11,632 nt of DNA from a bacterium (lineage in GTDB: Bacteria; BMS3Abin14): the NCBI GenBank assembly GCA_020350725.1, contig CP070719.1, forward strand, positions 1,150,681-1,162,312, in the 5' to 3' direction. This document shows, one piece after another, positions 421 to 11,632 of this stretch. The number at the start of each line of letters is the position of its first letter. Position 1 is the first letter of the stretch. The position numbers and the translations under genes are program-made. The notes below the pieces were generated by a model. It saw only the letters and a list, made by a program, of their open reading frames with translations, searched no databases and was not told the origin of the DNA.

Positions 421-436
421 TGACAGATTATTGTCA
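421..436. promoter_or_regulatory. TGACA-N6-TGTCA palindrome, possible operator
   Basis: A perfect 5-bp inverted repeat with a 6-nt spacer lies 28 nt before the resB start and about 30 nt after the candidate -10 box. The size and spacing suit a dimeric regulator, or it could be chance. No second copy was noticed elsewhere in the window. Confidence 0.2.
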
Positions 437-463: not shown

Positions 464-1732
464 ATGTCCTCACCACGAGACATCACCAACCGGCTCGGTT
501 CCCTCAGACTGACGGTGGTTCTTCTCCTCCTTCTGGCGGCCGTCTCCATCCTCGGCACCTTTCTGCCTCAGAGGAGGACTGCGGCCGAATACGACGAACT
601 CCTGGGACCCACCGCCTCCCGGGCCGTGCAGGTCGTGTCCCTCTCGGACGCCTACCACTCACCCTGGTACAGGTTCCTGCTCCTGGCCCTCGCCGTCAAC
701 ATGGTCTCCTGCATGTCTACCCGGGTACCGGCCATGCTGTCCAGCCTGCGGGGCGAGGCGGCCCGGCGGCGGGAGCCTGTATGGGAAGGCGAGATGGAGA
801 AAGAAACGGAGAGCAGGCTTGTGGAGGTCTTCCGGTCCCGGGGATTTCGGGAAAGCTCCCGGGACGGGGCTCGGCTCCTCTCCAGGGGTGGATGGGGTTA
901 CGCACTCACCCTCGCCGGCCACCTGAGCATCCTCGTCATCATGGCCTTCTCCGCCCTCGGCTCGGCGATGGGCTTCATCGGCACCCAGAGGGTGTACGTT
1001 GGCGATGCCGTGGACACCTACTTCAACTGGAAGACCATGTCCGACACCAGACTGCCCTACCTCCTGGCGGCCGAGGACCTGGTCAGGATACCCCACCCCA
1101 TCGCTCTCAGGATCGGGGTCCGGGAGGCGGCCTCGGGAAGGAAGGTCAGGCTGATCACCACCCACGTGGGAGATGATTTCAGCGTACCCGGCCTTCCCGG
1201 CCGCATAGAGATCACGGGTTTCGAGACCGGCGAGAAGAGATTGGAAGGATTCTGGGTGGATGACGAGGGACGGAGGACGGCCATCACGCCCGAGGAGGAG
1301 ATCGGGACCAGCGGCCTGGTCCTCGTCCCGGTGGCCTTTGCCCTGTATCCGGAGCGACAGGTCCAGGCCCGGACCTCCCTGGTGCGTGACGGCAGGGTCC
1401 TGATCACGGAGGAGATCGCCGTGAACCATCCCATGAGATTCCAGGGGATCGACATCTTCCTCACCGATTACGGGACGGATCCCTACGGCATCCCCTATGT
1501 GGGCTATCAGATCGTAAGGGATCCGGGAAGGGCGGGCGTCTGGGCGGGCTGCGTCCTCTTTCTCCTGTGCATCACCGGCGCTCTCTTTGTCCGTCATCGC
1601 TGCGTCGTCCTCGTCAGGCAGGGGGATTCGGTGAGGATCCACCTGTCGACAAGGGGGATGCGGCCGGCGGCGGTCGAGGAGATCCTGGAGGCCGTCGGAT
1701 ACGTTTCGGAGGGCGACCGCGATGGGGATTAA
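464..1732 (+). CDS. resB: ResB/Ccs1-like cytochrome c biogenesis protein
   Basis: A 422-residue membrane protein of the ResB (Ccs1) family. With ResC/CcsA it forms the System II complex that carries heme across the membrane and attaches it to CXXCH motifs of periplasmic c-type cytochromes. Visible family features are TM1 (residues 14-35), a YHSPWYR entry into TM2 (64-84), TM3 with a conserved-type histidine H153 in AGHLSIL (146-172), a large periplasmic domain (173-355) ending in NHPMRFQGIDIF (321-332), TM4 (356-377) and a short cytoplasmic tail. The length is normal for the family. The start ATG has only a weak Shine-Dalgarno sequence, but it is well placed before TM1. The gene overlaps the downstream kinase by 11 nt, so the two are cotranscribed. 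No ResC/CcsA partner gene is present in the window, which is unusual because the two are commonly adjacent. Confidence 0.9.
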   Translation: MSSPRDITNRLGSLRLTVVLLLLLAAVSILGTFLPQRRTAAEYDELLGPTASRAVQVVSLSDAYHSPWYRFLLLALAVNMVSCMSTRVPAMLSSLRGEAARRREPVWEGEMEKETESRLVEVFRSRGFRESSRDGARLLSRGGWGYALTLAGHLSILVIMAFSALGSAMGFIGTQRVYVGDAVDTYFNWKTMSDTRLPYLLAAEDLVRIPHPIALRIGVREAASGRKVRLITTHVGDDFSVPGLPGRIEITGFETGEKRLEGFWVDDEGRRTAITPEEEIGTSGLVLVPVAFALYPERQVQARTSLVRDGRVLITEEIAVNHPMRFQGIDIFLTDYGTDPYGIPYVGYQIVRDPGRAGVWAGCVLFLLCITGALFVRHRCVVLVRQGDSVRIHLSTRGMRPAAVEEILEAVGYVSEGDRDGD

Positions 1733-3230
1733 ACTCAGCTGGCCCAAGAAGATCCTCCTCTACTCCATTGTCCTGACGAGCGTTGCCGTTCTTCTCACAT
1801 CCTTCATAACAGTCCGGACCGCGGCCCATATATGGGAGAAGGAGTTCACGGAGAGAAATGTCGCCTACGCCAGGTACACCTCACTGGACGTCCTGCGCAT
1901 CTTCGGGGGGAGTTTCACCGGGGAGGTCCTTCCTGAGCTCACGGAGGCCATGGAGTTTCTCAGGGGCTACAACCAGGACCTCGTCGGGATCATGATCCTC
2001 ACCGAGAGCGGCCGGATCCTCTTCTCGACGGTGGCTCCCGAGATCAACCGGAGCCTGGAACGGGAGCGGGGAGACGGCCTGGCTGAGGCGGTGCAGGAGG
2101 TCATCCTCTCCGACGAGCCCGACGTGAGAGAGATCGGGACCGGCAGCAGCCGGCTGCAGGACGTCATCGCGCCCGTGTCCACGCGGGGCAGCAGCCGGCC
2201 CATCGCGGTCCGCTATGTGTACAGCTACGCCTCCCTCGAGCAGAGGGCGAAGGACCACATCCGGGCGGCCATCGCTGCCGCTCTGGCCCTTCTCCTCATC
2301 GGGGGACTCCTCTCCATCGTCCTGTCAAGGGGATTGGTCAGACCCGTCAGGGTGCTCTCGACCGGTGCGGCCAGGATCGCAGGCGGCGACCGGGAACATC
2401 GGATCGACGTGGAGACGGGAGACGAGATGGAACACCTGGCCCTCCAGTTCAACAGGATGGTGGATTCTCTCAGCACCCAGCAGGAGGAGCTCGAAGCCGC
2501 CAACCTGGAGCTGAGGGAGGCAAATGCCCGGCTCCGGGAACTTCAAGCCCAGCTCGTAAGGTCCGAGCGTCTGGCCGCCCTCGGCCAGCTGTCGGCCGGG
2601 GTCTCCCATGAACTGGACAACCCGGTGGGGGTCATCCTCGGATACGCCGAACTGATCCGGGACGAATCAGGAGAGAAAACCATCGACGAGTATGCGGCCA
2701 TTATCCTGGAGGAGGCCAAGAGGTGCAAAAGGATCATCGCCGGCCTGCTGGATTTCTCCCGTCCCAGCACAGGGCAGAGGGAGGTCCTCGACATGCGGGT
2801 CCTGGTGGAGGACCTCGTGGACCAGCTCAGGGACCAGAGGGCGTTTCGGGATGTTCGCTGGGAGCTCGTCCCCGGAGACGGGGAACCGGTGGTGTGCGCC
2901 GATCCCGACGACCTGCGCCAGATCTTCGTTAATCTCGGTCTTAACTCCGTCCACGCCATGTCCGGCTCGGGGGTGATCACGGTGGAGATCGCCGAACACC
3001 TCCATGGGGACCGGAGGGGTTTCCTGGTGCGGTTTGCCGACACGGGACCCGGTTTGACCGAAGAGATCGTCGAGAGGGTCTTCGATCCTTTCTTCACCAC
3101 CAAACGCAAGGGCGAGGGTACGGGCCTGGGCCTGTCCATCTGCAGGAAACTCGTGGAGGAGGCGGACGGCTGGCTTCGGGCGGTGGCCGGCCCCGTGGGC
3201 ATCTTCGAGATGTGGCTGCCGGGAGGATGA
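1722..3230 (+). CDS. Membrane sensor histidine kinase (HAMP-HisKA-HATPase)
   Basis: A 502-residue NtrB-like/PAS-less sensor kinase. TM1 is at 11-30, followed by a periplasmic sensor region of about 150 residues (31-180), TM2 (183-203), a HAMP linker (204-255), a coiled-coil stretch (252-285), and HisKA with H-box AGVSHELDNP, phosphoacceptor H296. The ATPase domain shows N-box NLGLN (N404, N408), G1 DTGPGL (440-445), F-box VFDPFFTTK (453-461) and G2 GEGTGLGLS (464-472). All catalytic boxes are intact. The start ATG at 1722 has GGAGGG (1708-1713) 8 nt upstream and lies inside the 3' end of resB, implying translational coupling. The sensor region has a fold typical of small-ligand sensors, but its ligand cannot be read from sequence. 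Its likely partner is the sigma-54 activator at 3762-5123, from which it is separated by repeat element B. Confidence 0.95.
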   Translation: MGIKLSWPKKILLYSIVLTSVAVLLTSFITVRTAAHIWEKEFTERNVAYARYTSLDVLRIFGGSFTGEVLPELTEAMEFLRGYNQDLVGIMILTESGRILFSTVAPEINRSLERERGDGLAEAVQEVILSDEPDVREIGTGSSRLQDVIAPVSTRGSSRPIAVRYVYSYASLEQRAKDHIRAAIAAALALLLIGGLLSIVLSRGLVRPVRVLSTGAARIAGGDREHRIDVETGDEMEHLALQFNRMVDSLSTQQEELEAANLELREANARLRELQAQLVRSERLAALGQLSAGVSHELDNPVGVILGYAELIRDESGEKTIDEYAAIILEEAKRCKRIIAGLLDFSRPSTGQREVLDMRVLVEDLVDQLRDQRAFRDVRWELVPGDGEPVVCADPDDLRQIFVNLGLNSVHAMSGSGVITVEIAEHLHGDRRGFLVRFADTGPGLTEEIVERVFDPFFTTKRKGEGTGLGLSICRKLVEEADGWLRAVAGPVGIFEMWLPGG

Positions 3231-3231
3231 T

Positions 3232-3430
3232 GCGGGGAGAAAAGAGTCCAGGGTCCAGAGGCCGGCGTCCAGAGGGAGCGATTTAAAGGTAATGCGTACC
3301 GAAGTATCGAGGTAGCGAAGTATCGAGGTGTTTCGATCAATAAAGAAGGAACTCAAGGTTGAATTCCTCGATACCTCCATACCTCCTGACACCGATACCG
3401 ACCGGATAGCGTGGAACCTCGATCTTCTAA
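3232..3430 (+). repeat. Core of repeat element B
   Basis: Same orientation as the core at 11189-11388 and very similar to it, with scattered single-base differences and almost no length change. It begins 2 nt after the kinase stop codon. Imperfect inverted arms at 3308-3328 and 3366-3386 could pair (about 18 of 21 positions by eye). The left arm itself lies in a run of four degenerate octamers (GAAGTATC, GAGGTAGC, GAAGTATC, GAGGTGTT). Confidence 0.85.
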
Positions 3431-3684
3431 CGAGGGCGAGGGGGAGAAGGGGCGATAACTGAGTCCAGAGTCCAGAGGCCAGGGTCCAGAGGGAGCGCAG
3501 AGGCGATGGGGCCCTTCAACAAGCTCCGTTCGACAAGCTCACGACAGGCGGGGCAGGCAGAGGGCCACAGAGATGTCTTCAGTTTTGGATTTTGGATTTG
3601 GGACTTTGGATTCGATACCTAATCACTAATCACGGCTCTTTCCTAGCTGTGAACAGGGAACCGTGAACTGCGAACTGGAATTTA

Positions 3685-3715
3685 CGAATCACGAATCACA
3701 AATCACTAATCACGG
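3685..3715 (+). repeat. AATCAC octamer array
   Basis: Four degenerate units in a row (CGAATCAC, GAATCAC, AAATCAC, TAATCAC) followed by GG. Nearly the same string, with the same GAACTGGAATTTAC lead-in, occurs at 11557-11586, and its reverse complement type at 21-50. Spacing of 7-8 nt makes it a short tandem repeat rather than a CRISPR array. Confidence 0.8.
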
Positions 3716-3748
3716 TAGTTTTCAACCGTGAACCGGGAACTTGTTTTC

Positions 3749-3753
3749 AGGAG
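3749..3753 (+). promoter_or_regulatory. Ribosome binding site fixing the response-regulator start
   Basis: AGGAG lies 8 nt before ATG 3762. It excludes the longer in-frame TTG at 3741, which would add seven residues before the receiver domain and has no Shine-Dalgarno sequence of its own. Confidence 0.8.
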
Positions 3754-3761
3754 CACAGACG

Positions 3762-5123
3762 ATGAGCGAAAAGATCCTCATAGTGGACGATGAACCCGGA
3801 ATGCGCAGCCTCCTGACGAGGGTCATGGAGAAGGAGGGCTATTCGGCGGCCGCGGTCTCCGCGGGAGAGGAGGCCATGGGCCTGCTGGAGGCGGAGGACT
3901 GGCAGCTGGTGATCGCGGATATCGACATGCCCGGGATGGACGGCATCGAGCTTCTCAAGAGGATCCGCTCGGAGAGGGCGGATACCCCGGTGATCATGAT
4001 CACCGCCTACGCTACGGTGGAGACGGCCGTCGAGGCGATGAAGCTCGGGGCACTGGACTACATAACCAAACCCTTCCAGGTCGACGAACTGAAGATCGTG
4101 GTGGGCAAGGTCTTCGAACGGCAGCGCCTGATAAGCGAGAAGAGGATCCTCCTCGACGAGATCCGAAACCGGTACGACACCAGGGGGATCGTCGGGGTCT
4201 CCCGGAGGATGAAGGACGTCATGGACCTTGCCCTCAGCGTCGCTCCGTCCAGGGCCAGCGTCCTCCTCGAGGGGGAGAGCGGGACGGGAAAGGAACTGGT
4301 GGCCCGTGCCATCCACGACAACAGCGAGAGATGCGACCGGCCTTTCGTCGTGGTCAACTGCGGGGCCCTTGCCGAAGGCGTCCTGGAGAGCGAGCTTTTC
4401 GGCCACGAGCGGGGCGCTTTCTCGGGCGCCATCGCGACGCGAAAGGGACGGTTCGAGCTTGCCGACCGGGGAACGCTCTTCATCGACGAGGTCGGCGAGC
4501 TGAATCTGACCGCCCAGGTCAAGCTCCTGCGTTTCCTCCAGGAGCACGAATTCGAGAGGGTAGGCGGGACCAGGGTCCTGAAAAGCGACGCCCGGATCAT
4601 CGCCGCCACCAACCGGGATCTTAAGGCCATGGTTCGGGAGGGGAAATTTCGGGAGGATCTCTTTTACCGGCTCAACGTGGTCCACATCCGCATTCCCCCC
4701 CTCAGGGACAGGATGGAGGATGTGGAACCATTGGCCGATTTCTTCCTGGACAAATACGCCTCCCAGATGAACAAGAAACTGAGGGGGATCGCCAGGGAGG
4801 TCGTCGTCGCCCTGCGGGCATACGAATGGGAGGGGAACGTCAGGGAACTGGAGAACGTCATCGAGAGGGCCGTGGTCCTGTGCAAGTCGGACACCGTCAC
4901 CCTCCGCGACCTGCCCGAGGAGCTGAGGGGCGAGGGGGGGGAGGAATACCTGTCGGACGGGGACCGGACCCTGACGGAGATCGTGGAATCCTTCGAAAGA
5001 CAGATCCTTGTCAGGGCCCTGGAGAAGAACAGGGGGAGCCAGACGAAGACGGCCGGAGAGCTCGGCATCAAGAGGACCACCCTCCGCTACAAGATGGACA
5101 AATACGGCATGCTGGACCGATAG
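3762..5123 (+). CDS. NtrC-family sigma-54-dependent response regulator
   Basis: A 453-residue activator. The receiver domain (1-120) has the acidic pocket D9-D10, phosphoacceptor D53, T81 and K103. The AAA+ domain (about 143-385) has Walker A GESGTGKE (171-178), a sigma-54 contact loop GAFSGA (218-223), Walker B LFIDE (239-243), sensor I AATNRD (281-286) and arginines R297/R303. A Fis-type HTH (about 409-447) ends the protein. It should hydrolyse ATP to open sigma-54 RNA polymerase complexes after phosphorylation, most likely by the upstream kinase. The contact loop has serine instead of the usual threonine (GAFTGA), a conservative change. The start ATG is chosen for its AGGAG box. A sigma-54 promoter lies 243 nt after its stop, so the operon 5396-11141 is the obvious target. 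Its last codons form the left arm of a perfect hairpin. Confidence 0.96.
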   Translation: MSEKILIVDDEPGMRSLLTRVMEKEGYSAAAVSAGEEAMGLLEAEDWQLVIADIDMPGMDGIELLKRIRSERADTPVIMITAYATVETAVEAMKLGALDYITKPFQVDELKIVVGKVFERQRLISEKRILLDEIRNRYDTRGIVGVSRRMKDVMDLALSVAPSRASVLLEGESGTGKELVARAIHDNSERCDRPFVVVNCGALAEGVLESELFGHERGAFSGAIATRKGRFELADRGTLFIDEVGELNLTAQVKLLRFLQEHEFERVGGTRVLKSDARIIAATNRDLKAMVREGKFREDLFYRLNVVHIRIPPLRDRMEDVEPLADFFLDKYASQMNKKLRGIAREVVVALRAYEWEGNVRELENVIERAVVLCKSDTVTLRDLPEELRGEGGEEYLSDGDRTLTEIVESFERQILVRALEKNRGSQTKTAGELGIKRTTLRYKMDKYGMLDR

Positions 5124-5139
5124 GTCCAGCATGCCGTAT
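5102..5139 (+). terminator. Perfect 17-bp hairpin spanning the regulator stop codon
   Basis: The left arm 5102-5118 (ATACGGCATGCTGGACC) and right arm 5123-5139 are exact reverse complements, with the 4-nt loop GATA. The stop TAG (5121-5123) lies in the loop and first base of the right arm, so the left arm encodes the last residues YGMLD. No T-run follows, so this is not a canonical intrinsic terminator. It may still terminate, protect the 3' end from exonucleases, or act as a DNA cruciform. It separates the regulator from the sigma-54 operon. Confidence 0.6.
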
Positions 5140-5365
5140 GGATTGCCGGTTTGCTGTTTCCGGTTCCCGTTTGGCACCACAATCAGGCAAAAAGCCCTTG
5201 GAATATAACGAAATTTTGGCCGGCTGCCGACCTCGGGTCCCGATCATTCGAAAATCCAGCGAAGATGTGGATGTTTTTTCTTTTCCGTGAGGATAACCGA
5301 AGGCGCCCTGACATCGGGATCGTGGGAGGACCATCAACCGGGAACCGTGAACGGGAAACTTTTTT
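5124..5365. promoter_or_regulatory. Probable upstream activator region for the sigma-54 promoter
   Basis: This gap between the regulator and its presumed target has the right place and size for enhancer sites of an NtrC-type activator. Visible symmetry includes TCGGGTCCCGA (5233-5243, 5-bp arms around one base). Related pieces are CGGTTCCCGTTT (5161-5172) and the oppositely oriented AACCGGGAACCGTGAACGGG (5337-5356); the latter also resembles the GTGAAC repeat units of elements B and C. An isolated TATAAC (5204-5209) lacks a properly spaced -35. No coding region is seen. Which palindrome, if any, binds the regulator is not decidable here. Confidence 0.35.
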
Positions 5366-5381
5366 TGGTACGGACATTGCT
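5366..5381 (+). promoter_or_regulatory. Sigma-54 (-24/-12) promoter
   Basis: TGGTACGGACATTGCT has the diagnostic GG (5367-5368) and GC (5379-5380) exactly 10 nt apart and matches the consensus TGGYAC-N5-TTGCW. It points at the operon starting at 5396, immediately after a sigma-54 activator gene. Counting from the -12 C, transcription would start near 5392. That leaves only about 4 nt before ATG 5396, and there is no Shine-Dalgarno sequence there. The leader would thus be almost absent. Confidence 0.75.
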
Positions 5382-5395
5382 GTGAACACCGGATA

Positions 5396-6406
5396 ATGAT
5401 GAGGAGAGAAAAGCTCATCCGTCCGGTCCTCGGCGGGGTCGTCCTCCTGGCCCTCCTCACGGCGGCGGGCTGTTCGGGTCCCTTCACCGGCAGGGAGCTG
5501 GCCGCCCTTCCCGTGGCCCGGGAACCCACCGGGGAGGACTGGGAGAAAACGGTTCCCCTGGTGGTAGAGGCCTGGATGGGGAACGTCCACGAGAGGCCGG
5601 AGATCGTCGCCCTGGACCGGGAGACCAGCCACAGGTCAACGGCCCAGTGCCACCACGGGCCCTCGGAGAGCGACCCGGTCGAGGTCCGGCTGCAGGCACT
5701 GTACAGCCGGGAGGAGATCTTCATCCTCGCCCAGTGGGAGGACAGGACGAGGGACACGGACCTGGGGCACTGGGAGAAAATGGCAGGGGGGTGGGCGGCG
5801 ACACCGGGGGCGGACGACGGCATCGCCCTGCTCTGGGGTCCTGCTGTGGAAGGAGAATTCAGGTGCCAGAGCGCGTGTCACATGGTGGATGTGGAGGTTT
5901 TCGACGGCCGGCGGGAGATGCAGATGAGGATGATGTTCGCCGGGGAGGGCATCGCCGATCTCTGGCGGTGGAGATCCGGGGTGACGGCACCCTTCGGTCT
6001 GGCCGACGACATGGCCGTCGACCGGAACGGCAAGCGCGGTGATGAGGGGCAGGCCCTGATCCTGGAAAACCACCCCCCCCCGACCGACGCCGAAGCGGCC
6101 GCCGAGGGGATGACGATACCATATGTCCTCATCGAGCCGCCGGGTGGAGATCAGGCCGACGTCCGGGCCGACGGGTCCTGGGACAGGGGACATTGGAAGG
6201 TCCTCTTCCGGCGCCGTCTCGTGACGGGAGACGGAGACGACAGGGTCTTCACCGCCGGCGACAGGTTCGGATTCGGCCTGGGTGTCTTCGACAACACCTT
6301 CAGGGATCATCATGTCGTCCAGGAGGGCCTCGAACTCAGGCTGGTGGCTGCCCAGGGGGGAGCGCTTAATGAAGGGAAGGAACGGTATGAACCGTTGGAT
6401 TTCTAA
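5396..6406 (+). CDS. Heme-binding lipoprotein, ethylbenzene dehydrogenase gamma-like (EB_dh) domain
   Basis: A 336-residue predicted lipoprotein with a basic n-region, hydrophobic 11-22, and TAAGC with C26 as the lipid-bearing cysteine. The rest matches the cytochrome c-552/DMSO reductase-like heme-binding domain family: EVRLQALYSREEIFILAQWED (96-116), DGIALLW (141-147), DLWRWRSG (188-195), GHWKVLFRRRL (265-275) and FGFGLGVFDN (291-300). Family members hold a heme and pass electrons as subunits of molybdenum enzymes or in multiheme chains. A CQSACH motif (C157-H162) followed by M163 looks like a CX3CH variant of a c-type heme site, and a second CH pair is at 85-86. No CXXCH is present. The start (tandem ATGs at 5396 and 5399) lacks a ribosome binding site and sits about 4 nt after the predicted sigma-54 transcript start. 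It is the first gene of the operon; its partner enzyme is not in the window. Confidence 0.8.
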   Translation: MMRREKLIRPVLGGVVLLALLTAAGCSGPFTGRELAALPVAREPTGEDWEKTVPLVVEAWMGNVHERPEIVALDRETSHRSTAQCHHGPSESDPVEVRLQALYSREEIFILAQWEDRTRDTDLGHWEKMAGGWAATPGADDGIALLWGPAVEGEFRCQSACHMVDVEVFDGRREMQMRMMFAGEGIADLWRWRSGVTAPFGLADDMAVDRNGKRGDEGQALILENHPPPTDAEAAAEGMTIPYVLIEPPGGDQADVRADGSWDRGHWKVLFRRRLVTGDGDDRVFTAGDRFGFGLGVFDNTFRDHHVVQEGLELRLVAAQGGALNEGKERYEPLDF

Positions 6407-7178
6407 CCGGCGGCCCCTGTCGGAAAGGTCCGCTGCCCTGGGGGCCATTGCGGCCGCCGTCCTGTCGGGGTTGTTCGTGTCGCCGGTTCTTCTTCTGACC
6501 GCCTGTCAGGAGAAAACCACCGGAGCTTCCGTGGTGGCCGGAAGGGTCGCCGTTCCCCTGTCCGAAGCCCGGATCTACATCTATCGGGAGGGTGAGGATA
6601 TCTACGGTCCGGCCCTTGTCGTCTCGGAACCCTCAGGACCCGACGGCCGATTCTCCCTCTCCCTCAAACCGGGCCGTTACATCGCTGTGGTGAGAAAGAG
6701 GCAGTCGGGTGACCTCGCCGGCCCGGTTTTGATCGGTGACTACAGGAGCGAGCCAATATCCTTCGAGGTCGCGGAGGGCAGACCGATAGAGCTCGACCTC
6801 GAGGCATCCGTCAAGACCGCCAACGAGAAGGTCTTCCCGCAGCCGGCCTCTGAGGTCCGGACCGGCATCGCCGGGACCGTCACCGACGCGGACGGCAAGC
6901 CGGTGGAGGGCGTCCGGATCCACGTCTACGACCACATCCAGATGTCCGAACGGCCCAAATATGTCGGCGAGAGGACAGGGGCCGACGGACGGTACATGGT
7001 ACCCGTCAAGAGGGGAGGGACCTATTATCTGGCCGCCCGGGACCGGTTCGGAGGCCCCCCCCAGCTGGGGGATCTCTTCGGAAGATACGATGAAGGAACG
7101 GTGGATCCGTCGGGGGTCGTGGTCAGGAAAGGGGAGGTCACCTCCGGCATCGACATCGTCGTGCATCGGGTGTGGTGA
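6387..7178 (+). CDS. Lipoprotein with two carboxypeptidase-regulatory-like domains
   Basis: A 263-residue predicted lipoprotein: a long signal with LLLTAC, C40 as the modified cysteine. Two transthyretin-like beta-sandwich repeats follow, about 49-136 (SVVAGRVAVPLSEARIYIY ... DGRFSLSLKPGRYIAVV) and 150-260 (GIAGTVTDADGKPVEGVRI ... DGRYMVPVKRGGTYYLAAR). The GxVxDxxGxPVxGVxV and DGxYxxxVxxGxYYLxAR patterns typify CarboxypepD_reg/Cna-B-like domains, which serve as binding or structural modules in envelope proteins. No catalytic residues are recognisable. ATG 6387 is chosen (GGGAAGG at 6374-6380); ATG 6369, preceded by a G-rich stretch, would add six residues and is a fair alternative. It overlaps the previous gene by 20 nt, implying coupling. 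It may be a scaffold or adhesion partner for the heme lipoprotein. Confidence 0.75.
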   Translation: MNRWISNRRPLSERSAALGAIAAAVLSGLFVSPVLLLTACQEKTTGASVVAGRVAVPLSEARIYIYREGEDIYGPALVVSEPSGPDGRFSLSLKPGRYIAVVRKRQSGDLAGPVLIGDYRSEPISFEVAEGRPIELDLEASVKTANEKVFPQPASEVRTGIAGTVTDADGKPVEGVRIHVYDHIQMSERPKYVGERTGADGRYMVPVKRGGTYYLAARDRFGGPPQLGDLFGRYDEGTVDPSGVVVRKGEVTSGIDIVVHRVW

Positions 7179-8068
7179 TGAGAGGATCCGTCGTCTCTCT
7201 GCTCGTCGTGGTCCTTGTCTCCTGCTCCACGGGCGAGGTCAGCGTCGCCGCCCTCGCCGAGGCCGCAGGAGAGGGCAATGCCAAGGCCGCAAAGAAGCTG
7301 ATCGAGACCATGGGATCGAAGGATGCCGAGAAGGCCCTGGCTGCCTATCAGTCGGTTCTGTCCCTGGGAAAGACGGTGGAGCCGCACCTTCGCCGGGGGC
7401 TGGACTCGAGGGATGCCGCGGTCTCCGAGGCATGTGCGGCCGTTCTCGGCAACCTGGGTTCACCGGACAATATTCCGTATCTCACCGCGGCGATAAGGGA
7501 AGGGGGGAAGGTACCCTACTCGGTCGTGTGGGCGCTGGGAGAGATCGGAGACCCGGAGGCGGTGCCGGCACTCGTCGAGGTCCTGCGGGGGCCCAACGAC
7601 GTGCTGAGAAAAGCAGCCGTCCGGTCCCTGATACGGATCGGCACCCCGGCCGGAGAGCACGTTCAGGCCCTGTTGGCCGAACCGCTCGGGAAAACCGGGC
7701 AACGGGCCGTGATCCGGGTCATCGGAGGGATCAGGCGCGGGGAAGCCCTGCGCCCCCTGACCCTGATCACCGGTGAGAACAGGGACGCCGCCGCGTGGGC
7801 TCTCGGCCGGATCGGCGATGCCGAGGCCCTCGAAGCGCTGGTCGGGGCCCTCGGGGACGCAAGGTGGGAGGTCCGCCGGGAGGCCGCCGAGGCCCTGGGC
7901 CGCCTCGAGGACGACCGGGCCGTGCCGGCACTGACGGATCGTCTCGATGACCCGGAGCCGGTGGTGAGGGAGTGGGCGGCGCGTTCTCTGGAGACCATCA
8001 CCGGCCGGCAGGTTCTGTACCGGGACGAGGACGGCAGGATGATCCCACCCTACAACCTCTACAGGTAG
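7178..8068 (+). CDS. HEAT-repeat lipoprotein
   Basis: A 296-residue predicted lipoprotein (hydrophobic 5-14, LVSC with C16). From about residue 66 it is a chain of HEAT/PBS-lyase-like helical repeats, for example PYSVVWALGEIGDPEAVPAL (113-132), VLRKAAVRSLIRIGTP (142-157), AAAWALGRIGDAEALEALV (204-222), EVRREAAEALGRLEDDRAVP (231-250) and VVREWAARSLETITG (262-276). Such repeats form a curved solenoid used for protein-protein docking; no enzymatic motif is seen, and a bilin lyase role is not implied. The C-terminus DEDGRMIPPYNLYR is non-repeat. ATG 7178 overlaps the previous TGA by one base (TGATG). GTG codons at 7172 and 7175 are in frame but less likely. A scaffold role in the envelope complex is inference. 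Confidence 0.8.
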   Translation: MRGSVVSLLVVVLVSCSTGEVSVAALAEAAGEGNAKAAKKLIETMGSKDAEKALAAYQSVLSLGKTVEPHLRRGLDSRDAAVSEACAAVLGNLGSPDNIPYLTAAIREGGKVPYSVVWALGEIGDPEAVPALVEVLRGPNDVLRKAAVRSLIRIGTPAGEHVQALLAEPLGKTGQRAVIRVIGGIRRGEALRPLTLITGENRDAAAWALGRIGDAEALEALVGALGDARWEVRREAAEALGRLEDDRAVPALTDRLDDPEPVVREWAARSLETITGRQVLYRDEDGRMIPPYNLYR

Positions 8069-8095: not shown

Positions 8096-9658
8096 ATGTC
8101 CAGAGAGCAGGCGGGACCGCTGACAGCTTCGAAGCTCTTTAAGAGTGCCACCTTCTGGACCTTCCTCAGGGGAGGGGCGGCCGCCGCCGCGGTCTGGATC
8201 CTTTTCACGGCCTGGGGACGCTGGGATATCCCCGGCGTCGACGTGGCCGATCCCCTCATGTACACCAACGCGGGAAATCTGGTCTTCTGGGTGGTGTGGA
8301 TGATGGCCCTCGTCGTCCTCGCACCCGTGGCGGGCCGGGCCTGGTGCGGGGTCTGCCCCCTGGGGACCCTGAACGAACTGGCCGCCCGCTGGGGGTTTTC
8401 CAGACCCTTTCCGAGGATCCTCCGGAACTCCTATCTCAAGGCGGCCGCTCTCGTCGGGACCGTTCTCCTCCTGGGCCTGGGCAGGATCCACCATTACCCC
8501 GCAGCCACTGCCTACTATGCGGCCGCGTGGGCCATCCTGGCGGTGGCCATGGGGGCCGTCTTCGCGGGGAGGTCCCTGTGCAGCTACGTCTGCCCCGTCG
8601 GCGGCGTACTGGCACTCTACGCCCGCGCGGCGCCCACGGTGATGGCGGTCCGGGCGACCGAAACCTGTGTGACGTGCACCGGCAGGGAATGCGTCAGGGG
8701 AAGCGAGCACTGGCTCCACATGGCCCTGGGCAGGCTTCGGTCCGCGTTACGGATCCGCCGCCATCCCTGCCCCGTGAACCTCAAGGTGTGGGAGATGGAG
8801 GGAGCGGAAAGGTGTCTGCTCTGCTTCAACTGCATGCGTGCCTGTCCCCTGGACAACGTGAAGCTCGCCCTCCGGAGTCCCTTTTCGTCCGTCTGGAACG
8901 AGAGGTACCCGAGGCTCTCGGACACGGTCCTGGCCGCGGCGGTAATGGGCTTCCTTCTCCTGAGCTTCTCCAGGTTCTGGCCCGCTCTCCAGGATATCCT
9001 GGCCCTCCCGGTGAGCGCGCTTGCGGGGGTGACCGGGGCTGCCCTCGCCAGACCCCTCTACCTCTTCTGGGTCGGCTTCGCCCTTCCCCTCGTCATCCTC
9101 GTCACACCATCCCTCTTCGTCGGCTGGGGCAGGTCCCTGCACCGGCAGCCGGTGAACGATCCGGGAGAAGGGGGACAGAAGGGGAGGAGGGTTTTCCCTG
9201 TCCGTCTCTGGCTGGCCCGGCAGTCGGCAGGGGGAGGGGAGAGGGGCGGCGAGGACGACGAGGAAAGGCTGGTGAACGGAAACGACTCCGTGCTGGGACT
9301 GGCCACCGTTCTCATGCCCTCTGTCGTGCCCGTGCTCCTGGGGGGACATCTCGCCCTGGCGGCTGTTAAGCTCAACGCGAAGGTGGCCTATATCGGCCTG
9401 GCCGCCGCCGACCCCACCGGCATCAGAACCTACATGGCGATCGAGGAGCTGGGCATCCTCCCGAGGCCCGGCCTCCTCCTTCCTTTAGCTGCCCTGAGGC
9501 CCCTCTCGGCGTTCCTGGTGGCCGGCGGCACGGCCCTCTCCCTTCTCGCGATCCTCAAGATCGCGAGAAGGGAGGCGGTTCCGGTGCTGCCCTACCTCGT
9601 CCAGGGGGTCGTCATCGGCGCCTGTTTCGCGGGAGGTCTGATCCATTGGCTGTTCTGA
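8096..9658 (+). CDS. NapH/NosR-like polytopic 4Fe-4S membrane protein
   Basis: A 520-residue integral membrane protein with roughly ten hydrophobic segments (e.g. 60-79, 115-130, 139-157, 275-292, 322-342, 398-417, 460-487, 498-518). Two family motifs sit at membrane edges: GRAWCGVCPLG (C84, C87) and GRSLCSYVCPVG (C162, C166). A classical ferredoxin motif CLLCFNCMRACP (C240, C243, C246, C250) is complete. A second Fe-S site is divergent, C191-x2-C194-x4-C199 with C225-P far downstream. Proteins of this kind (NapH, NosR, CcoG/RdxA) move electrons between quinone and periplasmic or cytoplasmic partners, or assist maturation. Residues 354-392 form a low-complexity Gly/Glu/Arg loop. The C-terminal extension with several membrane segments is longer than in NapH. 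The gene begins 27 nt after the HEAT gene with no strong Shine-Dalgarno near ATG 8096, so the start is less certain. A perfect inverted repeat lies near its 3' end. Confidence 0.8.
   Translation: MSREQAGPLTASKLFKSATFWTFLRGGAAAAAVWILFTAWGRWDIPGVDVADPLMYTNAGNLVFWVVWMMALVVLAPVAGRAWCGVCPLGTLNELAARWGFSRPFPRILRNSYLKAAALVGTVLLLGLGRIHHYPAATAYYAAAWAILAVAMGAVFAGRSLCSYVCPVGGVLALYARAAPTVMAVRATETCVTCTGRECVRGSEHWLHMALGRLRSALRIRRHPCPVNLKVWEMEGAERCLLCFNCMRACPLDNVKLALRSPFSSVWNERYPRLSDTVLAAAVMGFLLLSFSRFWPALQDILALPVSALAGVTGAALARPLYLFWVGFALPLVILVTPSLFVGWGRSLHRQPVNDPGEGGQKGRRVFPVRLWLARQSAGGGERGGEDDEERLVNGNDSVLGLATVLMPSVVPVLLGGHLALAAVKLNAKVAYIGLAAADPTGIRTYMAIEELGILPRPGLLLPLAALRPLSAFLVAGGTALSLLAILKIARREAVPVLPYLVQGVVIGACFAGGLIHWLF
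9538..9574 (+). repeat. Perfect 16-bp inverted repeat inside the Fe-S gene
   Basis: The left arm 9538-9553 (CTCCCTTCTCGCGATC) and right arm 9559-9574 are exact reverse complements separated by CTCAA. It lies in coding sequence for the last membrane region (SLLAILKIARRE), about 80 nt before the next gene starts. A perfect stem of this length within a reading frame is unlikely by chance. It might act as an attenuator, an RNase-resistant segment setting the expression of the two distal genes, or a recombination scar. Confidence 0.7.
9631..9637 (+). promoter_or_regulatory. Ribosome binding site for a TTG start
   Basis: GGGAGGT lies 8 nt before TTG 9646, inside the 3' end of the Fe-S gene. It decides the start of the small exported protein, as the nearby ATG at 9660 is out of frame. 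Confidence 0.75.
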
Positions 9659-10149
9659 GATGGCTTTTGACCCTGCTCCTGCTGTCGGCGGGAACTCCCG
9701 TCCAGGCGCACATGGGACGGACCATCTACCTCCTTTATCCCGAGGGCGCCGATGAATCCCTGGCCGCCAATATCGTGGCGGCCTACATGGGCGAACAGAT
9801 GGGCAGAGAGATCCTCGCGGAGGGCAGGAAGGGGACCGCCTCCTGTCTGGACGGTGTTATCGCCCGGGAGTCCCCCATGGCCCTCGTGCCGGCCGACGGC
9901 TGGGAGAGCGGGCCGTCCGGCCTGGTCAAGATGGACCCCGCCATCCGGGTTGGAACCAGCCGGTACGTACTGATCATGGGGCAGGAGGCGGCGGGACAGC
10001 TGCAGTTCAGCCTGGTCCGGCAGTACCTGTCCGTCCTCTCGGCGGGTCTCGATGGAAAAGACCTCGACAGGTCGATAGATCTGGTTCGGAGAGGAAGCGG
10101 GGCGCGCAAGGTGGCCCTCGACCTTCTCAGGGAAGGAGACATGCTGTGA
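9646..10149 (+). CDS. Small exported protein of unknown function
   Basis: A 167-residue protein I do not recognise. It starts at TTG with a strong Shine-Dalgarno sequence and overlaps the Fe-S gene by 13 nt. The N-terminus is a clean Sec signal peptide (LRWLLTLLLLSAGTPVQA, cleavage expected after A22). The mature part is soluble, with one cysteine and alternating alpha/beta character: TIYLLYPEG, ANIVAAYMGEQMGREIL, ALVPADGW, YVLIMGQEAAG and ARKVALDLLREGDML. The pattern vaguely recalls one lobe of a periplasmic binding protein, and the next gene encodes such a protein, but it is far too short for a complete one. It shares a 4-nt overlap with that gene. Periplasmic location is well supported; function is not. 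Confidence 0.75.
   Translation: MAVLRWLLTLLLLSAGTPVQAHMGRTIYLLYPEGADESLAANIVAAYMGEQMGREILAEGRKGTASCLDGVIARESPMALVPADGWESGPSGLVKMDPAIRVGTSRYVLIMGQEAAGQLQFSLVRQYLSVLSAGLDGKDLDRSIDLVRRGSGARKVALDLLREGDML
10133..10138 (+). promoter_or_regulatory. Ribosome binding site for a GTG start
   Basis: AAGGAG lies 7 nt before GTG 10146, which overlaps the previous stop as GTGA. It supports this start for the PhnD-like lipoprotein and tight translational coupling. Confidence 0.75.
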
Positions 10150-11141
10150 AGAAGCCCGCGGTGAAGATACTTCCTCCTGTTCCCCGGGTGCCCGCTCCCC
10201 CAACGAGAGCGCTGCCGGCCGGGGCGATCCTGATCCTGGCCGCCCTTCTCCTGCCTCTGCCCTCCTGTAAGGGTCCGGCCGGTGAGACGGGAAAAACCGA
10301 TCGGCAGGTTCAGGCGGAGACCAGACCCCTGCGGATGGGTTTCATGATCTGCGACAGCGTCGAGGACACACGGAGGAGGTTCGAGCCCCTCACCCGCCAC
10401 GTCTCCCAGGTCACCGGCCTCCCCATCGAGCCGGTCTATCTGAATACCTTCGACGTGCCCGAGGCCTACGAGAGGGGAGAACTCGACATCACCCACACAA
10501 ATTCCCTGCTCTACATCATGATGCGCGAGAAGGGACTCGAGCCCCTGGCCGGGGAGAAAAGGGGGAGCATGGGTACCATGGCAGCGGGAGGGATAGCGGT
10601 GAGGGCCGACAGCGACATCGAGACCCTTGCCGACCTGAAGGGCAGGAGCATGGTCTTCGGGCCCATGATGTCACCCACCGGTTACCTCGCCCAGTACGAG
10701 CTCCTCCTGAATGCAGGGATCGATCCGGAGGTTGACCTCGACTTCTACGCCATCCCGTGGGGCGCCTACAAACACGAGAAGGTGGTCTACGGTGTGTGGA
10801 TGGGCGCCTACGACGCGGCGGCGGTGCCCCTCCTCGACCTGGAGATCATGGTGGCCCAGAGAAAGATCGGCGGGGATGACCTCAGGATCATCGCCAGAAA
10901 CGACGCTGTGCCGTACTGCGTCTTCGGGGTTTCGCCGTCCGTCCCGGAGGAGACCAGGAACGCCGTCCGGTCCGCGCTCATGAACCTGACCGGCGACGTG
11001 ACGGTGCCGGTGGGCGAGGAGGTGGTCGCCGTCCTCAGGGCGGCCGAGGTCGACGGCTTCGTCCCCATCAGGGACACCGATTTCGACCGGCTCAGGGAGA
11101 TGGCGAAGAAGACGAACATGCCGCCGTATCAGGAGTATTAA
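10146..11141 (+). CDS. PhnD-like substrate-binding lipoprotein
   Basis: A 331-residue predicted lipoprotein (hydrophobic 26-39, LPSC with C41) with a type 2 periplasmic binding fold of the phosphate/phosphite/phosphonate (PhnD) family. Matching segments are RRFEPLTRHVSQVTGLPIEPVY (77-98), AYERGELDITHTNSLLYIMMREKGLEPLA (107-135), LADLKGRSMVFGPMMSPTGYLAQYELLLNAGIDP (161-194) and YGVWMGAYDAAAVP (215-228). Canonical members deliver ligand to the PhnC/PhnE ABC transporter, but no permease or ATPase gene is present. Related domains form the sensor part of histidine kinases such as TtrS, so a role presenting a ligand to the kinase is possible. The ligand cannot be read: the usual phosphonate-pocket residues are not clearly kept. 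It is the last gene of the operon, entered by a GTGA overlap. Confidence 0.82.
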   Translation: MKKPAVKILPPVPRVPAPPTRALPAGAILILAALLLPLPSCKGPAGETGKTDRQVQAETRPLRMGFMICDSVEDTRRRFEPLTRHVSQVTGLPIEPVYLNTFDVPEAYERGELDITHTNSLLYIMMREKGLEPLAGEKRGSMGTMAAGGIAVRADSDIETLADLKGRSMVFGPMMSPTGYLAQYELLLNAGIDPEVDLDFYAIPWGAYKHEKVVYGVWMGAYDAAAVPLLDLEIMVAQRKIGGDDLRIIARNDAVPYCVFGVSPSVPEETRNAVRSALMNLTGDVTVPVGEEVVAVLRAAEVDGFVPIRDTDFDRLREMAKKTNMPPYQEY

Positions 11142-11149
11142 AAGAGAGT

Positions 11150-11183
11150 AAAAAGGAGAAAGGGGAAAGGGGAAAGGGAGAAG
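11150..11183 (+). other. Homopurine tract after the operon
   Basis: A run of 34 purines without interruption (AAAGGGG-type units) lies between the operon stop and repeat element C. A homopyrimidine run of 27 nt (334-360) lies at the equivalent end of element A, so the tract seems to belong to the element. No hairpin-plus-T terminator is seen between 11142 and 11188. Confidence 0.6.
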
Positions 11184-11188
11184 CGGAC

Positions 11189-11388
11189 GCGGGGAGAAAT
11201 GAGTCCAGAGGCCAGCGTCCAGAGTCCAGAGGGAGCGATTTAAGGGTAATGCGTACCGAAGTATCGAGGTAGCTAAGTATCGAGGTGTTTAGATCAATAA
11301 AGAAGGAACACAAGGTTGAATTCCTCGATACCCCCATACCTCGTGACACCGATACCGACCGGATAGCGTGGAACCTCAATCTTCTGAC
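11189..11388 (+). repeat. Core of repeat element C
   Basis: About 200 nt, highly similar to the core at 3232-3430, with fewer than a dozen single-base differences in the central 180 nt as counted by eye. The TCCAG array at its start has one unit arranged differently. Imperfect inverted arms are at 11265-11285 and 11323-11343. Confidence 0.85.
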
Positions 11389-11632
11389 GCGGAGAGAAGT
11401 GAGTCCAGAGGCCAGCGTCCAGAGTCCAGAGAGGGCGAGGGGGCCCTTCGACAAGCTCAGGGCAGGCGAAAAGGAGTCTGTCATTGCGAACAGGAAACCG
11501 CGTGAAGCAATCTATAACCGTGAACCGTGAACCGTGAACGGTGAACTGGAATTTACTGATCACGAATCACAAATCACTAATCACGGCTCTTTGCCAACCG
11601 TGAACTGTGAACTGTCCTTTTGGATTTTGGAC
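11189..11632 (+). repeat. Composite intergenic repeat element C (runs to the window edge)
   Basis: Same orientation as element B. In order it has a TCCAG/GGCCAG array (11200-11233), the core (11189-11388), a second TCCAG array (11401-11430), TTCGACAAGCTCA (11447-11459) inside CCCT...AGGG, the CATTGCGAA...GAAGCAATC module (11480-11512), a run of ACCGTGA units (11515-11549), an AATCAC array (11557-11586), further GTGAACT units (about 11597-11613) and TTTTGGATTTTGGAC (11617-11631). The module order parallels elements A and B. No coding gene is supported here; it begins about 48 nt after the last gene's stop. Confidence 0.85.

Follow-up and report, generated by a model that had tools for sequence, protein, structure and literature searches.

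The question raised by this locus is whether an operon of six genes is transcribed from a sigma-54 promoter that lies so close to the first start codon that the message would have almost no leader, and, if so, what controls that promoter and how the first gene is translated. The window analysed is the whole stretch of 11,632 nucleotides; its source genome (G000) is a single contig of 2.78 Mb, and comparisons were made within a set of 12 genomes of the phylum, all of one family. The genes of the locus are as follows.

464..1732, + strand, ResB-like cytochrome c biogenesis protein (Pfam PF05140)
1722..3230, + strand, sensor histidine kinase (HAMP, HisKA, HATPase_c)
3762..5123, + strand, sigma-54-dependent response regulator of the NtrC family (receiver, AAA+, Fis-type HTH, GAFSGA loop)
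5396..6406, + strand, operon gene 1, ethylbenzene dehydrogenase-type haem-binding lipoprotein (EB_dh; Pfam PF09459), start ATGATG without a Shine-Dalgarno (SD) sequence
6369..7178 (start approximate), + strand, operon gene 2, lipoprotein with a carboxypeptidase regulatory-like domain (domain match)
7172..8068, + strand, operon gene 3, HEAT-repeat lipoprotein (domain match)
8096..9658, + strand, operon gene 4, NapH-like 4Fe-4S membrane protein (domain match)
9646..10149, + strand, operon gene 5, no family match
10146..11141, + strand, operon gene 6, PhnD-like periplasmic binding protein (domain match)

A preliminary description had placed an NtrC-family activator gene directly upstream of the operon, and Response_reg, Sigma54_activat, and HTH_8 domains were indeed found by Pfam in the product of 3762-5123. 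The regulator gene starts at ATG 3762, its product contains Walker A and B motifs, and the loop that contacts sigma-54 reads GAFSGA instead of GAFTGA in all eight orthologs, a departure that speaks against the mechanism proposed below, although GAFSGA activators are listed among the D. vulgaris sigma-54 activators (PMC4641369). The genome encodes one copy of rpoN (PF04552, E 3.4e-62) and gave 16 strong matches to the sigma-54 activator domain. About 390 bp past the window, just 3' of the operon, lies another gene for a sigma-54 activator (G000:C1:1162705-1163205). In the EB_dh-type lipoprotein (5396-6406), two motifs are invariant, FRCQxxCH (CX3CH) and CHHGP, both of them unusual possible haem or metal ligands.

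Two features lie between the regulator gene and the operon.

5366..5380, + strand, sigma-54 promoter -24/-12 element TGGTACGGACATTGC, kept in 8/8 orthologous loci
5391..5393, + strand, region where transcription is predicted to start from sigma-54 promoter geometry, 11-13 nt past the -12 C, 5392 likeliest

In the window sequence, TGGTACGGACATTGCT occupies 5366-5381, with GG at 5367-5368, GC at 5379-5380, and ten bases between them, and a T-tract (5359-5365) lies directly 5' of the element. The -12 C is 15 nt from ATG 5396, the T at 5381 is 14 nt from it, and a second in-frame ATG (5399) directly follows ATG 5396-5398. A GG-N10-GC sigma-54 promoter ending 14 nt before the start of a six-gene operon had been described previously; the coordinates were reproduced, and the element at 5366-5380 proved to be conserved across genera. 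Transcription from sigma-54 promoters usually starts 11-13 nt after the -12 C, and a leader of about 4 nt (3-5 nt) is accordingly predicted for the first operon gene. An SD sequence does not fit in a leader of that length, and none was found between the predicted +1 and ATG 5396, in agreement with the earlier observation that none was visible; the genomic sequence upstream of ATG 5396, beyond the predicted leader, is also free of one. In Campylobacter, starts lie 8-13 nt downstream of the sigma-54 motif (PMC3847290). A mis-annotated start was ruled out: an intact lipoprotein signal peptide of the first operon gene is obtained only from ATG 5396/5399, and no alternative start yields one in the near-leaderless orthologs.

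Full-length orthologs of the first-gene protein were identified in seven other genomes of the set. Searching the named genomes and viruses with the single protein produced no match, and searching the named genomes with the protein alignment returned three records of uncultured MAGs (SZUA-204, bin582, and bin676). The gene order resB, kinase, regulator, promoter, and six-gene operon is kept in the relatives as far as the contigs reach. Loss of the GG/GC pair from orthologous loci, named in the preliminary description as evidence that would speak against it, was looked for and not seen, since TTGGTAYNNNC[AC]TTGCT is present at the orthologous position in all eight. Measured from the -12 C, the start codon is 15 nt away in G000, 14 nt in G008, 13 nt in G011, G003, and G005, and 10 nt in G007; the near-leaderless geometry claimed for the window is thus conserved across genera (10-15 nt in six of eight loci, spanning five genera), with geometry-predicted leaders of 0-5 nt and diverged sequence between -12 and start. 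Short lipoprotein signal peptides in the orthologs begin right at the assigned start codons, and these starts are therefore not an artefact of gene calling. In two species of one sister genus the distance is 58 and 217 nt, the 217-nt leader containing dispersed-repeat-like DNA, and the short leader is therefore not essential there.

The set was scanned for the sigma-54 promoter pattern followed by an ATG at 9-16 nt, and candidates lying within genes or having a later start with an SD sequence (e.g., L175, L209, L248, and L253) were discarded. Raw pattern counts were set aside as proof of a genome-wide class. The reversed pattern gave 6 matches against 70 for the real pattern, but the two differ in CpG content. 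About 0.9 per genome was estimated with an order-2 Markov model, against 11 matches (10 distinct sites) in G000, while values as high as 4.6 came from a small order-3 simulation. Conservation per gene was used as the evidence for a class instead. All ten genomes that have lpxC (PF03331), which lies 3' of an Rnf-type gene, carry GG-N10-GC upstream of it; the ATG follows the -12 C at 14-16 nt, and in none of the ten does an SD sequence fall within the predicted transcript. The sigma-54 assignment of lpxC is supported by the activator-controlled sigma-54 transcription of lpxC known in Desulfovibrio vulgaris. TGGCA-N6-TTGC with 12-13 nt to the ATG was found in seven genomes before the gene for a ComEA-like helix-hairpin-helix protein, in five before comEC (PF03772), and in two before the gene for a ComF-like zinc-ribbon protein. 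The same motif, about 12-16 nt before the ATG, was also observed at Y1 transposase-like, GIY-YIG, four-helix-bundle-like, and GxxExxY-type PD-(D/E)XK genes; the mobile-type and other loci with this arrangement are L227, L259, L269-L271, L273, L172, L187, L252, L179, L241, and L261, and the signal before these four gene types may be a sigma-54 promoter or another one. For the comEA-, comEC-, comF-, and mobile-type genes the assignment to sigma-54 is made from sequence alone, and it is possible, though rather unlikely, that TGGCA-N6-TTGC before comEA, comEC, and the small mobile-type genes is read by something else and that the class comprises just the EB_dh operon and lpxC. The comEA-, comEC-, and mobile-type genes have no known activator, and the TAC/CAC extension is missing at several of their sites; against this, GG-N10-GC and TTGC are kept, at a constant 12-13 nt from the ATG. 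The preliminary description had called sigma-54-driven leaderless mRNAs unusual; in this lineage the predicted arrangement is not a one-off, its layout being shared by lpxC and the competence-type genes. Repeated TGTTGCA motifs were observed 100-250 nt upstream of the lpxC promoter in several genomes (L174, L180-L182, and L185) and are candidate activator sites.

Two candidate sites for the regulator were located upstream of the promoter.

4998..5014, + strand, AGACAGATCCTTGTCAG, dyad GACA-N6-TGTC, candidate intragenic enhancer, invariant at synonymous sites in 8 genomes
421..436, + strand, TGACAGATTATTGTCA, palindrome related to the intragenic dyad, upstream of resB, candidate autoregulatory site, only full match in G000

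The regulator's binding region had been placed at 5124-5365 in the preliminary description. As a general site for the enhancer this gap was rejected, being only about 55-76 nt long in three relatives and otherwise filled with dispersed repeats, and the conserved candidate site was found instead at 4998-5014, within the activator's own coding sequence. Nine locus genes were codon-aligned, and synonymous conservation was scored in 3321 six-codon windows, the strongest of which (z 7.7) encodes RQILVR (AGA CAG ATC CTT GTC AG). Third-position GC ranges from 0.62 to 0.87 among the eight genomes, yet this 17-mer is identical in all of them. No other invariant run of at least 14 nt occurs in the nine aligned genes, and the RQILVR codons are absent from those paralogous activators that have readable tails. 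The dyad lies about 180-441 bp upstream of the -24 element in the eight loci, varying with the intergenic gap, and both the distance and its variability fit a looping enhancer. A close relative of the dyad, the palindrome TGACARAWTAYTGTCA, precedes resB in 7/7 readable loci, and its full form was found nowhere else in G000, with about 0.1 expected per genome. The two sites have GACA-N6-TGTC in common; we infer that the regulator may bind both, and 4998-5014 is the likely enhancer. That the 17-mer is instead some other conserved DNA or RNA signal, such as an mRNA element, a promoter inside the gene, or a site for a different factor, is unlikely without being far-fetched: only one clear dyad was seen in the regulator gene, whereas enhancers are often paired, which counts against an enhancer, while the half-sites shared with the resB palindrome and, in each of the eight loci, a distance of 180-440 bp to the downstream promoter, compatible with looping, speak for one.

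No sigma-54 promoter was found upstream of resB. Blocks at near-constant spacing were observed there (370-465) in seven genomes, namely TGTAAC, GTAWWAC/GTATAC, a T-tract, the GACA-TGTC palindrome, and TGACRGA, and the region has the look of a complex promoter or operator that lacks a -24/-12 element. A perfect 16-bp inverted repeat (TACGGCATGCTGGACC / GGTCCAGCATGCCGTA, 4-nt loop) spans the regulator stop codon at 5103-5138 with no T-run after it, and a similar but different fold-back occupies the same place in G008; these are possibly template-switch products or unusual terminators. Dispersed repeats (accgtgaaccgggaac, cgaggtatcgaagtatcgaggt, and relatives) fill the intergenic DNA at 1-400, 3250-3760, 5320-5362, and 11150-11632. 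In several genomes related repeats separate the enhancer candidate from the promoter, and G001 has them in its long leader.

A real sigma-54 promoter could also coexist with translation of the first gene mostly from a longer upstream transcript, through read-through from the regulator operon or from another promoter, the short transcript being minor or poorly translated. The two relatives with long leaders fit such an arrangement, which is nevertheless improbable: the 10-15 nt spacing is kept in six genomes of five genera, and a longer transcript would not help, because the genomic sequence upstream of the start has no SD sequence either. In a rough test, 69 of 127 long ORFs in G000 had an SD-like motif before them, and a control position gave 24 of 127. 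The PII gene is preceded by the extended element MKKVEAIIKPFKLEE in most genomes, usually with an SD sequence and 28-43 nt to the start; two or three genomes with intervening repeats have a longer leader, and a pilin-like gene with a TTGGTAY sigma-54 element has 84 nt to its start. The promoters of the TTGGTAY type other than that of EB_dh, mostly at this nitrogen regulator gene, have longer leaders, and nearly all of these leaders contain an SD sequence. The ordinary leaders of the PII and pilin-like genes indicate that a short leader is not simply normal for sigma-54 in these genomes.

The element at 5366 is the best (one mismatch) of three window matches to TGGCACN5TTGC with up to two mismatches allowed, a match count not above chance; the extended element TTGGTAYN5TTGCT occurs 4 times in the 2.78 Mb genome against 0 for a reversed control. 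The element at 5366-5380 is taken as real because of its conservation, not because of the window match count, and a chance resemblance, which the frequency of loose matches would allow, has a negligible probability given 8/8 conservation beside a sigma-54 activator gene in a genome with rpoN.

Conservation of the promoter, its spacing, the enhancer-like DNA, and the synteny is observed. In the mechanism that we propose, the kinase (1722-3230) and response regulator (3762-5123) would control the promoter at 5366-5380; the phosphorylated regulator would bind the GACA-N6-TGTC dyad within the 3' portion of the regulator gene (4998-5014), loop over 180-440 bp of variable DNA, and drive open-complex formation. 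Transcription would start near 5392, with the mRNA beginning 0-5 nt before ATG 5396 or 5399, and the first gene would be translated without an SD sequence, the 5'-proximal AUG probably being recognised directly. A rough probability of 0.7 is given to this joint reading, which comprises a real sigma-54 promoter, control by the pair, the intragenic dyad, and a near-leaderless start and translation. We take the locus as one member of a real class of near-leaderless sigma-54 promoters that is conserved in this phylum, here with an enhancer inside a gene; the layout kept here and at lpxC suggests that sigma-54 messages in these bacteria may often lack the usual ribosome landing site. A broader statement is tentative, at somewhat short of even odds: that a whole sigma-54 class (EB_dh operon, lpxC, and comEA-, comEC-, and comF-type genes) abuts the start codon in this candidate phylum and couples activator-gated transcription to leaderless translation, with the EB_dh activator reading an enhancer that lies within the activator gene itself, adjoining the segment for its DNA-binding domain. 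If true, the most tightly gated bacterial transcription, in which no transcript is made without an activator, would be joined to SD-free translation, and -24/-12 scans that demand an SD-sized leader would miss targets. The results also suggest that this uncultured phylum has a sigma-54 regulon with genes for lipid A synthesis and DNA uptake among its members.

Sigma-54 leaderless genes were not found described as a class in the open-access literature, most subscription journals lying outside the search, and their novelty is provisional. In Sinorhizobium, leaderless and sigma-54 starts were both mapped, with no link drawn between them in the consulted part of the paper (PMC3616915). The arrangement resembles that of sigma-54 promoters with NtrC-family enhancer-binding proteins in its -24/-12 element, adjacent kinase and AAA+ response regulator, rpoN, and distant upstream dyad, and differs from the usual form in that the start codon follows the -12 by 10-15 nt, with almost no leader, and the conserved dyad lies within the activator's own gene. 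Leaderless mRNAs have been tied to sigma-70-type boxes in Campylobacter (PMC3847290), Bradyrhizobium (PMC4842269), and Deinococcus-Thermus (PMC12340547). As predicted here, those transcripts begin at or within a few nucleotides of the AUG and have no SD sequence; theirs is a -10-type box next to the ORF, whereas here a -24/-12 element abuts it and an activator is needed. The lpxC gene of D. vulgaris, a target of the sigma-54 response regulator DVU2934 (PMC3333781, PMC4641369), is a sigma-54 target, as lpxC is predicted to be here; a near-leaderless layout is not mentioned in the consulted parts of those papers, whereas here it is kept in 10/10 genomes. Targets of Myxococcus Nla28 have intragenic sigma-54 promoters (PMC9765219), so that sigma-54 control DNA overlaps coding sequence in both cases; in Myxococcus it is the core promoter that lies inside a gene, and long leaders occur, whereas here only the candidate enhancer is intragenic.
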